Shown here: in pieces, positions 1-3,893 of the stretch
Layout: each line of letters opens with the position of its first letter
How positions within the stretch are numbered: position 1 is the stretch's first letter
DNA from: Rhodothermales bacterium
GTDB lineage: Bacteria; Bacteroidota; Rhodothermia; Rhodothermales; JANQRZ01
DNA: 64,000 nt
Direction of reading: 5' to 3'
Assembly (NCBI GenBank): GCA_039944855.1
Contig: JBDUXZ010000031.1
Coordinates: 1-64,000 of the forward strand
Translations under genes and position numbers: made by a program
The notes under the pieces: generated by a model
What the model saw: only the letters and a program-made list of their open reading frames with translations
What the model was told of the DNA's origin: nothing
Database searches by the model: none

Positions 1-137
1 CGTTCGCGTGGTTCGGCGGGTACCGCCGGCTCTCGAAGGACTACGAGCGGCTACCCGCCGTCAGCGAAGCGTTGGTCCAACTCAGTGCGATTCGGTTGAT
101 GGTTCGACGCATCGCCTAGCTTCCCCAAACAGTCTCT
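1..137 (+). mobile_element. Right end of an IS5-family insertion sequence (truncated by window edge)
   Basis: The window opens inside an insertion sequence. The last residues of a DDE transposase are encoded up to base 119, and about 18 bases later the sequence AAACAGTCTCT closes what looks like the right terminal inverted repeat (about 121-137; read outward-in it is AGAGACTGTTTGGGG, typical of IS5-family ends). The left end lies outside the window, so the repeat and any target duplication cannot be confirmed. The kinase reading frame resumes directly after this end, so the element appears to sit inside that gene. Confidence 0.6.
3..119 (+). CDS. IS5-family transposase, C-terminal fragment
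   Basis: Only the last 38 codons are in the window and they end at a TAG. The peptide contains FAWFGGYRRLSKDYERLP and then IRLMVRRIA, the highly conserved tail of IS5/IS427-group DDE transposases, where the consensus is FAWL-x-RYRRLSKDYE followed by IRLM-RRL. The catalytic D-D-E residues would lie upstream, outside the window. The family assignment is from memory of this tail and is strong. Whether the whole element is intact cannot be told. It explains the missing N-terminal half of the kinase that follows. Confidence 0.8.
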   Translation, partial: FAWFGGYRRLSKDYERLPAVSEALVQLSAIRLMVRRIA

Positions 138-144
138 AAGAGAT

Positions 145-654
145 GTGATAGATAGTGCCGCGCTCTCAGAAGCGGCGGTAGGAGCACTTGTGTACGACGT
201 GGCGGGAGCTATTGAGGCGCTATGGGAAGGCGGCAAGCGGATTGTACATCGAGATCTGAAGCCAGACAACATTATGGTTCGGTCCAACGGTCGGTACTGT
301 GTGATCGATTTAGGTGTGGCGCGGCACATTGATGAACCGACCCTAACAGCAACCGGATCGACGTGGGGAACCGTGGGCTACTTCTCACCAGAGCAGGCGA
401 AGGCGCGCAAAGCGCTGACCTCCAAGTCGGATGTCTTCGCCCTCGGCATCATTGCAGTCGAGGCGGCCCTGGGTCGCCATCCTACCCGCAGGGATCAGGG
501 GCGTGTGTTCTCGAGCGGAATGAATCATCGGTTGCCTGGCTTAGCAAATTCATTCTCCTTCGCCCCATTGATTCAAAAGATGCTTTCGCCTAGCCCCGTC
601 GGTCGACCTTCGCCGCAGAACATCATCAGCGCCCTCGCTAGTTACGCCCCCTAA
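145..654 (+). CDS. Truncated serine/threonine protein kinase (C-lobe only), cut by an IS element
   Basis: The reading frame encodes a Hanks-type kinase C-lobe: helix E, the catalytic loop HRDLKPDN (residues 35-42 from the GTG), a DLG metal-binding triplet (55-57, in place of DFG), an activation segment ending GTVGYFSPEQ (75-84), the helix F aspartate (SKSDVFALG) and the late RPS arginine. The glycine loop, the beta-3 lysine and the helix C glutamate are missing: upstream the frame runs into the end of an IS5-family element at about base 138. The GTG start is therefore probably not native. The catalytic-loop residues are intact, so either the gene was recently broken or the N-lobe lies beyond the element. 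It is followed after 5 bases by the unknown gene at 660, which suggests an operon. The base composition is lower in GC than the rest of the window. Confidence 0.75.
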   Translation: MIDSAALSEAAVGALVYDVAGAIEALWEGGKRIVHRDLKPDNIMVRSNGRYCVIDLGVARHIDEPTLTATGSTWGTVGYFSPEQAKARKALTSKSDVFALGIIAVEAALGRHPTRRDQGRVFSSGMNHRLPGLANSFSFAPLIQKMLSPSPVGRPSPQNIISALASYAP

Positions 655-659
655 ATCCA

Positions 660-1952
660 ATGGCCTTTTATCTAAATGTCGGATACTCGTTCAAAAGGCC
701 TCCGGTCAGCGGGGTTGACCGGAGCGTTGTCATTGCTTCGGCGATGCCTATGCACGTGCTCGAGAGGCGAGACATCAATGATCGATACCCCCACCTAGAT
801 CGTCGACTGTTTGATCCACAACTCTATCTCGCAGGCTTAAGCGCCTCTGCCTCGGGAGGTGCCTGCACCAACCTGGCCTCTTACCCTTGGTTCGGAGCAC
901 AAGGGCTAGATGATTTCGACAGTGCTCTCCATAAACAGAGCAGGTGGAAAAAGGACGCTGAGAAAGAGATCGTCAAACACTGGCCCGCCGCTCCCCCTAG
1001 CGATCCAAATGAGATAGAAGTCGCCGCGCAGGAGACCGTCGAGTTCCAAGTTCGACTTGGCTGCGAAGCAATCATCCTCCCCTCACCTCTAACACGCGAC
1101 CCCGGCTCTGATTACAGCTTTGAGATTCAGTGGCTAGAGAGTGGACTGCGGCAGGCTAAGGCATACGGTGACGAACTGCCTGTTTTGGCGACCATAGCAA
1201 TTCAAGACCTATGCCTGCTAGCTGCTGAACCTGACAGCAACCCACTGCTAGAAATTATTGCTGACTCTGTGTCGGCGAGGGGCGTCGATGGCGTCTACCT
1301 CGTCATAGAGCAAGGGTCAGAAGCTGCCGACACTCGACAGTGCGGCAACTTCCGGGTTCTTCAGTCGGCACTGCACCTCACACACATTCTGTCAAACGAT
1401 GCTGGTATCCGAGTCTTTATCAACTTCCTCGGAGCATTTGGCCTCGCGTGCGTAGCGGCAGGTGCGGAGTCATGGGCTTCGGGATGGTACAAAAGTTTGT
1501 ACCGAATGAAGCTGTCTGACAAGCAGGCGGGCGGGCGGGCGTTCCCGACCTATTGGTCTGACGGGATGGCTACGGACATCCATCTGCAAAGCGATCTCGA
1601 TACGCTCGCGAGTGGCAGCGCCTTCACTTCTGTAGCCACTCTGACTCCTCCCTCTGCGGGTCTGATCAAGGCTCTCAGTAGCGGCCGGGCAGTAGCGAGC
1701 GTGCCGGATTGGACATGGCGGCAGTCGAACATCTCAGCGGCCCAAGAACACTTCATTCACGCGATGGCCCGCTTCGATCAGCGTCTGCAACCGCTCACCG
1801 TCCAAGATAGAATCAACACGATTCACGAGTGGCTTAAGCAAGCCAACGCGCTTTCCTCTAGCGTTGGCCCTCAGCTAGGCAGCACAAAACTGAGTCACAT
1901 AAGCGCATGGGAAGCAGCCTTCTCCGCTTACAGGCGGGACCATAACGTATGA
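660..1952 (+). CDS. Hypothetical protein, possible alpha/beta-barrel, accessory
   Basis: I do not recognise this 430-residue protein. It is cytoplasmic-looking, with no signal peptide or membrane segment. From about residue 130 to 330 it alternates short hydrophobic strands with helices: EAIILPSPLT, LPVLATIAI, GVDGVYLVIE, then IRVFINFLGAFGLACVAAGA followed by SWASGWYKSLYRM. This pattern resembles a TIM-type barrel, and the last stretch faintly recalls the tRNA-guanine transglycosylase barrel; that is an impression, not an assignment. The ATG lies 5 bases after the kinase stop, so the two were probably co-transcribed. Its last 25 bases overlap the convergent nuclease-like gene. GC is visibly lower than in the core genes to the right, consistent with transfer. 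A kinase partner or a defence role are guesses from context only. Confidence 0.55.
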   Translation: MAFYLNVGYSFKRPPVSGVDRSVVIASAMPMHVLERRDINDRYPHLDRRLFDPQLYLAGLSASASGGACTNLASYPWFGAQGLDDFDSALHKQSRWKKDAEKEIVKHWPAAPPSDPNEIEVAAQETVEFQVRLGCEAIILPSPLTRDPGSDYSFEIQWLESGLRQAKAYGDELPVLATIAIQDLCLLAAEPDSNPLLEIIADSVSARGVDGVYLVIEQGSEAADTRQCGNFRVLQSALHLTHILSNDAGIRVFINFLGAFGLACVAAGAESWASGWYKSLYRMKLSDKQAGGRAFPTYWSDGMATDIHLQSDLDTLASGSAFTSVATLTPPSAGLIKALSSGRAVASVPDWTWRQSNISAAQEHFIHAMARFDQRLQPLTVQDRINTIHEWLKQANALSSSVGPQLGSTKLSHISAWEAAFSAYRRDHNV

Positions 1953-2599
1953 GAAGAAGTCAGAGCGGAGGTCAGTAGATACTCCCGTTCGTGTCCTCTG
2001 CCTTCGCGACGTTCTGGTTCGACTACCCACTCAGCAGAGTCGGGGGAGATTGCACACAGACCAACCCCCTGATCCGCGAACGCCTGAAGCGAACTCGCCT
2101 TCCGAGGCGTCGTCGCAGCATCCATAGCGACGACGGCGGTATCAGCGTATCGCTTGTGAGACATGGCCTGAATCAGCGCGTCTCTCCAACGAGTCAGCTT
2201 TGCCTCTACAGCAATCACTTCTGCTCTCATCTCACCCCAGAGAGTAGATAGTGACAAAGACCCGGTAGGGTTCTCTACGACAGCGCCGCTTGCAATCAGA
2301 TCCTTGAGCAGAGGCTGCAAGCGCTCAACATCGGTGTAGAGACGCTTCGCTAGTGCAGCAGGGCGAGTGCGACGGCGCTGACGGAGCGTAGCCAAGACTG
2401 CTGCGTGACGATACGTGCAGTTCTTAGGCAGCACGTCTTTGCCTGACAGGTTCTTGAAGCTTATACAGACGAAATCAGGTACCCGGTCGCCCATGGGTAC
2501 CTCGCGCCTGTAGACCCTTCGACCCTCCGAGGGCCAAATCGTCATAAGCAGGCCCTCAATCTCCTCTTGGAGTTCAGTTTCGTAGCGATAAGTGCTCAA
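1928..2599 (-). CDS. PD-(D/E)XK nuclease-like protein with an inserted winged-helix segment
   Basis: The 223-residue protein has the parts of a PD-(D/E)XK nuclease core in split form: an N-terminal helix, PDF with D42, and, after an unusually long gap, VIAVEAKL with E132 and K134, followed by a strand YADTAVVAMD. Between the two halves (about residues 62-115) lies a basic segment, LRQRRRTRPAALAKRLYT then helix and a short beta turn, that reads like a winged helix-turn-helix. This suggests a DNA-acting nuclease or a nuclease-fold regulator. The start is a TTG at 2597-2599; no ATG is available before the in-frame stop upstream, so the N-terminus is uncertain. A 12-base palindrome lies about 27 bases upstream. 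The 3' end overlaps the convergent gene by 25 bases. Low GC places it in the accessory islet. Confidence 0.6.
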   Translation of the reverse strand: MSTYRYETELQEEIEGLLMTIWPSEGRRVYRREVPMGDRVPDFVCISFKNLSGKDVLPKNCTYRHAAVLATLRQRRRTRPAALAKRLYTDVERLQPLLKDLIASGAVVENPTGSLSLSTLWGEMRAEVIAVEAKLTRWRDALIQAMSHKRYADTAVVAMDAATTPRKASSLQAFADQGVGLCAISPDSAEWVVEPERREGRGHEREYLLTSALTSSHTLWSRL

Positions 2600-2669: not shown

Positions 2670-3893
2670 TCACGGGACCGGGACGGGGAGGTCGGCGGGG
2701 AGGCCGGACGAGACGATCGGGGCTTCGGCGGCGGTCTGCCACGGGAGCTCCGGCCACCAAGGCGCGGCGGGGGCATCGCCGAGGGTGACGCTTTCGCCGG
2801 GCTTCGGGAAGGCGACGGGCACGCCGGCGCGCTCGGCCGCCACGCGGATGCGCTCGGCGGGCTCTGTCCAGCCGTGCAGCGAGAGGTCGAACAGCCCCCA
2901 GTGGACGGGCACGAGGAGGCCGCCCCGCACCATCTGATGCACGGCGACGGCCTGCTCCGGTCCGAGGTGCACGTCGGCCCACGCCGCGTTGTACGCCCCC
3001 GCTTCGATGAAGCTCACGTCGAACGGCCCGAGCCGCTCACCGATCTCTTCGAACCCCGGTGTGAGTGCCGTGTCGCCGCTGTAGAACACCCGCCGCTCAT
3101 CGCCGAGGAACGCCCACCCCGACCACAGCGTCGCGTCGCGGTCGGTGAGGAAGCGGCCCGAGAAGTGCCGCGCCGGCGTGCTGACGAGCGTGATCCCGCC
3201 GACCTCGACACGCTCCCACCAGTCGATTTCGGTGATCCGGTCGGGCGCTACGCCCCAGTATTCGAGGTGCGCGCCGATGCCGAGCGGGACGAGGAAGCGC
3301 GGCACACGCCCCGCGAGGGCGCGGATCGTGGGCTCGTCGAGGTGGTCGTAGTGGTCGTGCGAGATCACGACGGCGTCGAGCGGCGGGAGGTCGGCGAGGG
3401 CGAGGGGTGGGGCGTAAAACCGCTTCGGTCCGGCGAACGACATCGGCGAGGCGCGCTCGCCCCACACCGGATCGACGAGGATGCGCGCGCCGTCGAGCTC
3501 GACGAGGAGCGTCGAGTGGCCGAGCCACGTCACGCGAAGGTCAGAGGCGGCGTCGGCGAAGTCAGCGGCCGTCCGCGTGACGACGGGGAGCGGCTGCGCC
3601 GGCTCGCGGTAGTCGCTGCCGCCGAAGAAGAACTCGCGCGTAGCTGAGAGGCTCATCCCGCTCGAAACCGTCGGGAGTGCATTCGCGAAGCGGCCGTCGC
3701 GGTACTGCGGCGACTGCGCGATGCGGGCGAGGCGTTCGCCCGAGGGCTTGGCGCCGAGGGCGGACCAGATGTCGACCATGAGGAACGTACTTGCAGCGGC
3801 GATGAGCACGAGCGCGCCGCCGACGACACGGGGCCAGGGACGCGTCCCCGAGCGGCGGCGCACGGGGGACGAGGTGGGGGCGGAGTCGGCCAC
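2670..3893 (-). CDS. Membrane-anchored metallo-beta-lactamase-fold hydrolase (RomA/NAPE-PLD-like)
   Basis: The 407-residue protein has an N-terminal membrane anchor (about 20-45) and then a metallo-beta-lactamase fold: VTWLGHSTLLVELDG, ILVDPVWGERASP, and the metal-binding HDHYDHLD near residue 180, with later DxH elements (YSGDTALTPG and the terminal HWGLFDLS). This order matches the UlaG/RomA/NAPE-PLD group, which includes bacterial proteins of outer-membrane or phospholipid function; the substrate here is unknown. The GTG start directly abuts the TAG of the RND permease gene with no intervening base, so translation is probably coupled and the hydrolase is likely the last gene of the efflux operon. 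The region downstream changes to low GC, marking the edge of the accessory islet. Confidence 0.8.
   Translation of the reverse strand: MADSAPTSSPVRRRSGTRPWPRVVGGALVLIAAASTFLMVDIWSALGAKPSGERLARIAQSPQYRDGRFANALPTVSSGMSLSATREFFFGGSDYREPAQPLPVVTRTAADFADAASDLRVTWLGHSTLLVELDGARILVDPVWGERASPMSFAGPKRFYAPPLALADLPPLDAVVISHDHYDHLDEPTIRALAGRVPRFLVPLGIGAHLEYWGVAPDRITEIDWWERVEVGGITLVSTPARHFSGRFLTDRDATLWSGWAFLGDERRVFYSGDTALTPGFEEIGERLGPFDVSFIEAGAYNAAWADVHLGPEQAVAVHQMVRGGLLVPVHWGLFDLSLHGWTEPAERIRVAAERAGVPVAFPKPGESVTLGDAPAAPWWPELPWQTAAEAPIVSSGLPADLPVPVP

Follow-up and report, generated by a model that had tools for sequence, protein, structure and literature searches.

Among the described systems closest to the locus reported here, DpdA exchanges a base in DNA for 7-deazaguanine. 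The BREX-related capture (BRC) systems contain a homologue of tRNA-guanine transglycosylase (TGT) and a GNAT protein (PMC12839542). The CapK/CapS regulators have a VapC toxin-antitoxin variant (PMC13373217), and anti-phage defense by a DNA glycosylase has been reported (PMC11078745).

We analyzed a window, by which we mean the whole 64-kb stretch of DNA from the first base of contig C31 onward, in a Rhodothermales genome (G000; 4.6 Mb, 41 contigs). The initial annotation of this DNA had described a three-gene islet of deviating base composition next to an insertion sequence (IS) end, encoding the C-lobe of a Hanks-type kinase, an unrecognized barrel-like protein of 430 residues and a convergent PD-(D/E)XK-like protein with a winged-helix insert. 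It had also suggested that the genes form one defense system. We refer to the three genes and their families as K, X and N.

Results

An Islet Interrupted by an Insertion Sequence

The features of the islet are as follows.

1-139, plus strand: right end of an IS5-like insertion sequence, which splits the kinase gene (transposase C-terminus with stop at 117-119; terminal repeat TTCCCCAAACAGTCTC at 121-136; target duplication TAA at 137-139)
140-654, plus strand: K, C-lobe half of a Hanks-type Ser/Thr kinase, HRD motif at about 247-255
660-1952, plus strand: X, 430 aa, predicted TGT-type TIM barrel with C-terminal helices (AlphaFold, Foldseek, conservation)
1928-1952, no strand: 25-bp tail-to-tail overlap of the convergent genes X and N
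1928-2599, minus strand: N, 223-aa PD-(D/E)XK nuclease (AF2 model, structure matches, invariant motif)
2225-2425, minus strand: MarR-like winged-helix insert, residues 59-125 of N (MarR/OhrR structure matches)
2679-2778, minus strand: islet border, 3' end of an MBL-fold hydrolase gene, with a copy at the other border
Contig C10 of the same genome, about 137-464, minus strand: N-lobe half of K (match to the orthologue in locus L005)

The islet consists of K (the kinase C-lobe), X and N, with open reading frames at 145-654 (+), 660-1952 (+) and 1928-2599 (−). Its deviating composition was borne out: the GC content of positions 140-2660 is 56.3%, against 69.3% for the rest of the window and at least 64.8% in each of 589 equal-sized windows outside the islet. 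A direct repeat of 100 bp with 91% identity flanks the islet (window 2679-2778 and C10 638-737). Both copies correspond to the 3' end of the MBL-fold hydrolase gene and lie in direct orientation, and we infer from this arrangement that the islet looks as if it had been inserted where that gene ends. We saw no integrase within the islet, and its route of entry is unexplained. An empty site was sought in the two nearest genomes and none could be shown, because in these the MBL gene and the gene from the other side lie on separate contigs.

Bases 1-136 are indeed the right end of a repeated IS, followed by TAA. Identical ends are found at the termini of contigs C3 (1-139) and C12 (4-142), and a complete copy in C5 (about 411674-412546) has the inverted end GAGACTGTTTGGGGAA and a TCA duplication. 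The IS5-like element is thus present in multiple copies, and the assembly is broken at several of them (contig ends of C3, C12 and C31).

The identification of K as a Hanks-kinase C-lobe was correct, since K matched Pfam Pkinase (1.2e-23) over profile positions 93-258 only. The intact orthologous kinase of L005 matched this genome in two pieces, residues 31-125 on C10 and residues 122-291 in the window. C10 begins with the other IS end, and TAA is present at both junctions (C10 and C31). Because of the two-contig match and the shared TAA, the sequences are most likely explained by a single IS insertion, with a 3-bp duplication, that split K. A naturally short K was ruled out, as the N-lobe sits across the IS on C10. 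The N-lobe piece has the Gly-rich loop, the VAIK-type ATP-binding lysine and the helix-C glutamate, and the C-lobe piece has the HRD motif and the DFG-type aspartate; the Hanks-type Ser/Thr kinase motif set (Gly-loop, VAIK lysine, HRD, DFG-type aspartate) is therefore met, divided here between two contigs. Six generic kinases encoded in this genome fall outside the group formed by the kinases of the system (support 99/98). As the IS lies inside K, it arrived after the cassette. With K interrupted, the cassette in this genome is probably inactive, or at least not under the control of K, and X may be silenced by the IS.

X Is Predicted to Adopt the TGT Fold

X starts five bases after K. An AlphaFold (AF2) model built from 13 homologues (pLDDT 87.3, pTM 0.90) predicts a TIM barrel of the TGT type. 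The best PDB matches of the model in Foldseek were queuine/guanine tRNA transglycosylases (QTRT1/TGT) at 1e-4, and the VIA aligner matched X to TGT with a Z-score of 22.1 over 301 residues at 3.4 Å. All 50 matches listed by VIA were TGTs, with Z-scores of 21.5-22.1 over about 300 residues and 11% identity. The 430-residue protein, for which only a barrel-like character had been proposed, can thus be assigned a fold by model, Foldseek and VIA.

Sequence profiles did not detect this relationship. Pfam TGT (PF01702) did not match any of 13 X proteins at E 5, hhalign of the X profile with TGT gave a non-significant probability of 0.7%, and no significant alignment was obtained with canonical TGTs or with DpdA2 of Vibrio phage nt-1. 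No credible match to X was found in Pfam, NCBIfam, PADLOC, PHROGs or PDB sequences; a weak match of Psu to the C-terminal helices (E 0.023) was taken as chance. Foldseek against viral models returned only weak TIM-barrel matches, and tblastn of X relatives against a phage collection found nothing. Because the profile alignments are not significant, the link of X to TGT rests on the fold and on a group of divergent X relatives with a CxCxxC motif resembling the TGT zinc site. These relatives (G172 locus L083, viral L087, Priestia L092 and Haloarcula L096) give a profile that joins X with a probability of 99.5% and an E value of 1.7e-22, and a D-P dipeptide is kept in both groups. The zinc site, CxCxxC...H, is absent from 15 X proteins, the window copy included.

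A D52-P-Q-x-Y motif (window 810-830) is invariant in 15 X homologues. The TGT residue numbers used here (D102, Y106, D280) are those of the Zymomonas enzyme. By strand order alone, without superposition, D52 falls at the position of D102, from which we infer that this strand of X corresponds to the TGT strand with D102 and Y106. No conserved aspartate was found in the 15 X proteins at the place of the TGT nucleophile, D280, where strand 271-275 holds Ala, Gly or Ser. The register of the nucleophile was set by strand order together with weak hhalign profile alignments, and not by coordinate superposition.

N Belongs to the PD-(D/E)XK Nucleases and Carries a Winged-helix Insert

The AF2 model of N (pLDDT 93.2) matched 3dnx (SPO1766) with a Z-score of 11.7 and the type IIS restriction enzyme PaqCI with a Z-score of 11.2. 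Glu-7, Glu-33, Asp-42, Glu-132-x-Lys-134 and Gln-144 are invariant in 14 homologues. N thus shows the PD-(D/E)XK fold in its structure matches and a complete D...E-x-K catalytic signature in these residues. MarR/OhrR structures matched residues 59-125, in agreement with the winged-helix insert described initially. The compact N proteins of L016 and L055 are without this insert. Structure searches with the 430- and 223-residue proteins, proposed with the initial annotation, have returned a TGT fold for the one and a PD-(D/E)XK nuclease for the other.

K, X and N Form a Conserved Unit

The initial annotation had set beforehand that co-occurrence of at least two of the families elsewhere would support a system. 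When the genomes of 84,980 species were scanned with the X alignment, 12 loci were detected, distributed over Chloroflexota, Calditrichota, Acidobacteriota, Bacillota/Halanaerobiales, Planctomycetota, Myxococcota, Rhodothermota and Pseudomonadota. Relatives of K and N lie beside X in nearly all 12; the remaining loci are decayed or truncated at a contig end. Further complete sets were found in G139 and G255, in viral contigs (L017, L085, L086 and L090) and on plasmids of Polaromonas and the archaeon Natribaculum. All three families occur together in 20 loci from distant phyla, so the test was passed by all three families and not two; the bacterial loci represent at least eight phyla, and others are on a haloarchaeal plasmid and on viral contigs. 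They are the window, L005, L007, L008, L010-L014, L016, L017, L055, L056, L082, L084, L085, L086, L090, L092 and L097. L005 is counted although its N is cut by a contig end; L006 and L009, which are cut by contig ends, and the decayed L015 are not.

Two gene arrangements are seen repeatedly: K>X with a convergent N, and N>K>X with all three genes codirectional. Where N is convergent, the gene tails overlap in 10 loci, by 6-52 bp. In complete copies K and X are always adjacent. They are fused twice, on a Priestia and a Kocuria plasmid, into a single protein of about 675 aa that has a convergent N next to it. K, X and N are therefore a conserved unit, within which K and X are a pair.

Since a scan based on X could bias the count, the N profile was also searched alone. 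In 240 genomes of the class its strong matches were G000, G143 and G139, the same three that the X profiles match; three weak partial matches in Rhodothermia genomes (E 3e-4 to 8e-4) were taken as chance. Among seven N relatives in viral contigs, four are accompanied by K and X, one by an X-type gene without K, and two by no recognized X or K. In L089 (3984-4412) a compact N relative stands alone between phage terminase and portal genes.

Variant Loci and Neighboring Genes

K is missing from some relatives. In G172 (L083:6528-8843) an X relative with a CKCAVC motif is found with a PIN-domain protein and N. In L087 and on Haloarcula pHsi540 an X relative and a compact N are paired with a SocA/Panacea-like gene, assigned on weak Pfam scores below cut-off, and Arthrobacter pSI-1 has a similar gene order without a SocA/Panacea Pfam match. 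Because these few relatives have a SocA/Panacea-like gene or a PIN protein instead of K, X and N appear to be the core and K an exchangeable regulator, an inference from few cases.

Several other arrangements were observed. At L087:3589-6620, L096:2592-4769 and L098:1973-4801, SocA/Panacea-like or unassigned genes lie ahead of compact N and X-type genes, and in the Haloarcula variant a SIR2 protein follows this pair. In G139 (L082:6746-7405) a PP2C-type phosphatase gene, a possible counterpart of the kinase, overlaps and follows N. On a Gordonia plasmid (L093:5457-8332) an X relative lies beside a MbcA/ParS/Xre-type antitoxin gene and an aminoglycoside-phosphotransferase-like kinase, and no N was found.

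Copies of the cassette frequently have defense genes as neighbors. A type III methyltransferase and restriction enzyme precede L005, and a type IIG enzyme precedes the Natribaculum copy. L015 is surrounded by AbiH, AbiEi, AbiEii and DarG, and L013 has LmuB on one side and a PDC-M62A-type ATPase on the other. Among the carriers are a phage, in which the cassette lies between the terminase and portal genes, a VapE-like/integrase element, TniB/TniQ DNA and plasmids. Defense neighbors together with mobile carriage are the usual signature of anti-phage defense; there was no control comparison, and activity is inferred. The defense-island or mobile-DNA setting initially proposed is thus supported by the neighbors and by phage, plasmid and transposon carriage. 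Of the proposal that the genes form one defense system, the conserved three-family unit stands, and protection against phage remains an inference.

Discussion

Recurrence in unrelated bacteria, an archaeon and phages, often beside anti-virus genes, suggests that the cassette is probably a new immune system. We regard the locus, with slightly better than even confidence, as a mobile three-gene conflict cassette in a copy broken by the IS. The cassette is most likely a defense system against phages or plasmids, and its antiviral activity is inferred. X would then be a repurposed TGT that recognizes a nucleobase or nucleic-acid feature of the invader without base exchange; alternatively, its target may be tRNA or DNA of the infected cell. 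K would read or relay the state of X by phosphorylating X, N or both, and N would be brought to DNA by its winged helix, a domain of DNA-binding type, and then cut. A wider proposal, which we offer only tentatively, is that of a superfamily in bacteria, archaea and phages, in which a TGT-fold protein that no longer exchanges bases senses nucleobases or excises them and in this way licenses a winged-helix PD-(D/E)XK nuclease, under an exchangeable regulator (Hanks kinase, SocA/Panacea-like protein or PIN protein).

The occurrence of N alone in two viral contigs, and of an X relative without N on the Gordonia plasmid, speaks against a defense unit. The conserved mobile cassette could alternatively be an addiction module or a phage-encoded superinfection or competition device.

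X might instead be a nucleobase glycosylase that uses D52 as acid/base, forms no covalent intermediate and strips modified bases from tRNA or from the DNA of an invader, so that N can cut the damaged site. The invariant D-P-Q-x-Y motif at the inferred TGT acid/base position and the loss of the nucleophile would suit such an enzyme, for which the glycosylase defense mentioned above offers a precedent (PMC11078745). We nevertheless consider it unlikely, there being no direct evidence of activity and no assignment for the other conserved pocket residues.

The same low but appreciable credence is given to a toxin-antitoxin or addiction module in which N or X is toxic and is neutralized by K, or by SocA/Panacea in the variants. 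The SocA/Panacea-like genes beside the X-type and compact N pair, the PIN protein in place of K in G172 and the carriage on plasmids and phages all point in this direction. In the present genome, however, the X and N frames stay open with K interrupted, which means that N, as expressed here, can be survived without K; the possible silencing of X by the IS tempers this objection.

Dpd-like restriction-modification, in which X would exchange a base in host DNA, N would cut unmodified DNA and K would set the timing, is improbable. It would account for the TGT fold of X, the nuclease partner and the restriction-modification neighbors, but in X the nucleophile position holds no conserved aspartate, and profile comparison with TGT or Pfam TGT gave no significant match. 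Moreover, X does not have the DSGG motif that is retained in DpdA2 of Vibrio phage nt-1, and no preQ0-synthesis gene was recognized in the flanks when the lists of open reading frames were read by eye, without a profile scan. That unrelated cargo genes were trapped beside the IS, as its place at the border might suggest, can practically be discarded, since the same set occurs in 20 loci of distant phyla in two layouts and the IS, lying inside K, is later than the cassette.

If the defense reading is true, the cassette would be an immune system based on a fold familiar from RNA/DNA base exchange, with a nuclease effector and a protein kinase switch. Small intact copies of about 3 kb exist and are directly testable.

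Comparison with Known Systems

Neither X, N nor the K-X-N set is named in Pfam, NCBIfam (June 2026) or PADLOC (2023). X and N had no match in PADLOC-DB 2.0.0 at E 1, and the partner genes of named systems are not present. K shows only generic kinase-domain similarity to the kinases of PD-T4-6, Stk2, MADS (MAD6) and BREX (PglW), scoring far below the NCBIfam cut-offs, with the reservation that the window K is only half a gene. The early impression that none of the proteins belongs to a named defense module is thereby sustained. No system of this composition was found in the open-licence papers searched; subscription papers and newer defense model sets were outside the scope of the search. The folds are known and the three-gene set is apparently undescribed, though a prior description elsewhere is possible.

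X shares with TGT (QTRT1) and DpdA a TIM-barrel fold over about 300 residues (Z 22) and, by inference from strand order, an aspartate of D-P-Q-x-Y at the place of TGT D102; its divergent relatives have the CxCxxC motif in common with the TGT zinc site. It differs in its identity of about 11%, the lack of a Pfam TGT match and of a conserved nucleophile aspartate, the absence of the zinc motif from the window copy, and its partners, a kinase and a nuclease. BRC systems resemble the cassette in placing a TGT homologue in a defense locus, but they are built on PglZ, HerA/FtsK and ATPases, whereas the cassette consists of three small genes without these (PMC12839542). CapK resembles anti-sigma-factor kinases and not Hanks kinases, and CapS is a STAS-like repressor and not a nuclease; in common with the cassette, a kinase switches a DNA-binding partner, and a VapC-like nuclease is co-opted in one locus type (PMC13373217). 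N has the same fold and motif as 3dnx (SPO1766) and PaqCI and is set apart from both by the MarR-like winged helix between its Asp strand and its E-x-K strand.
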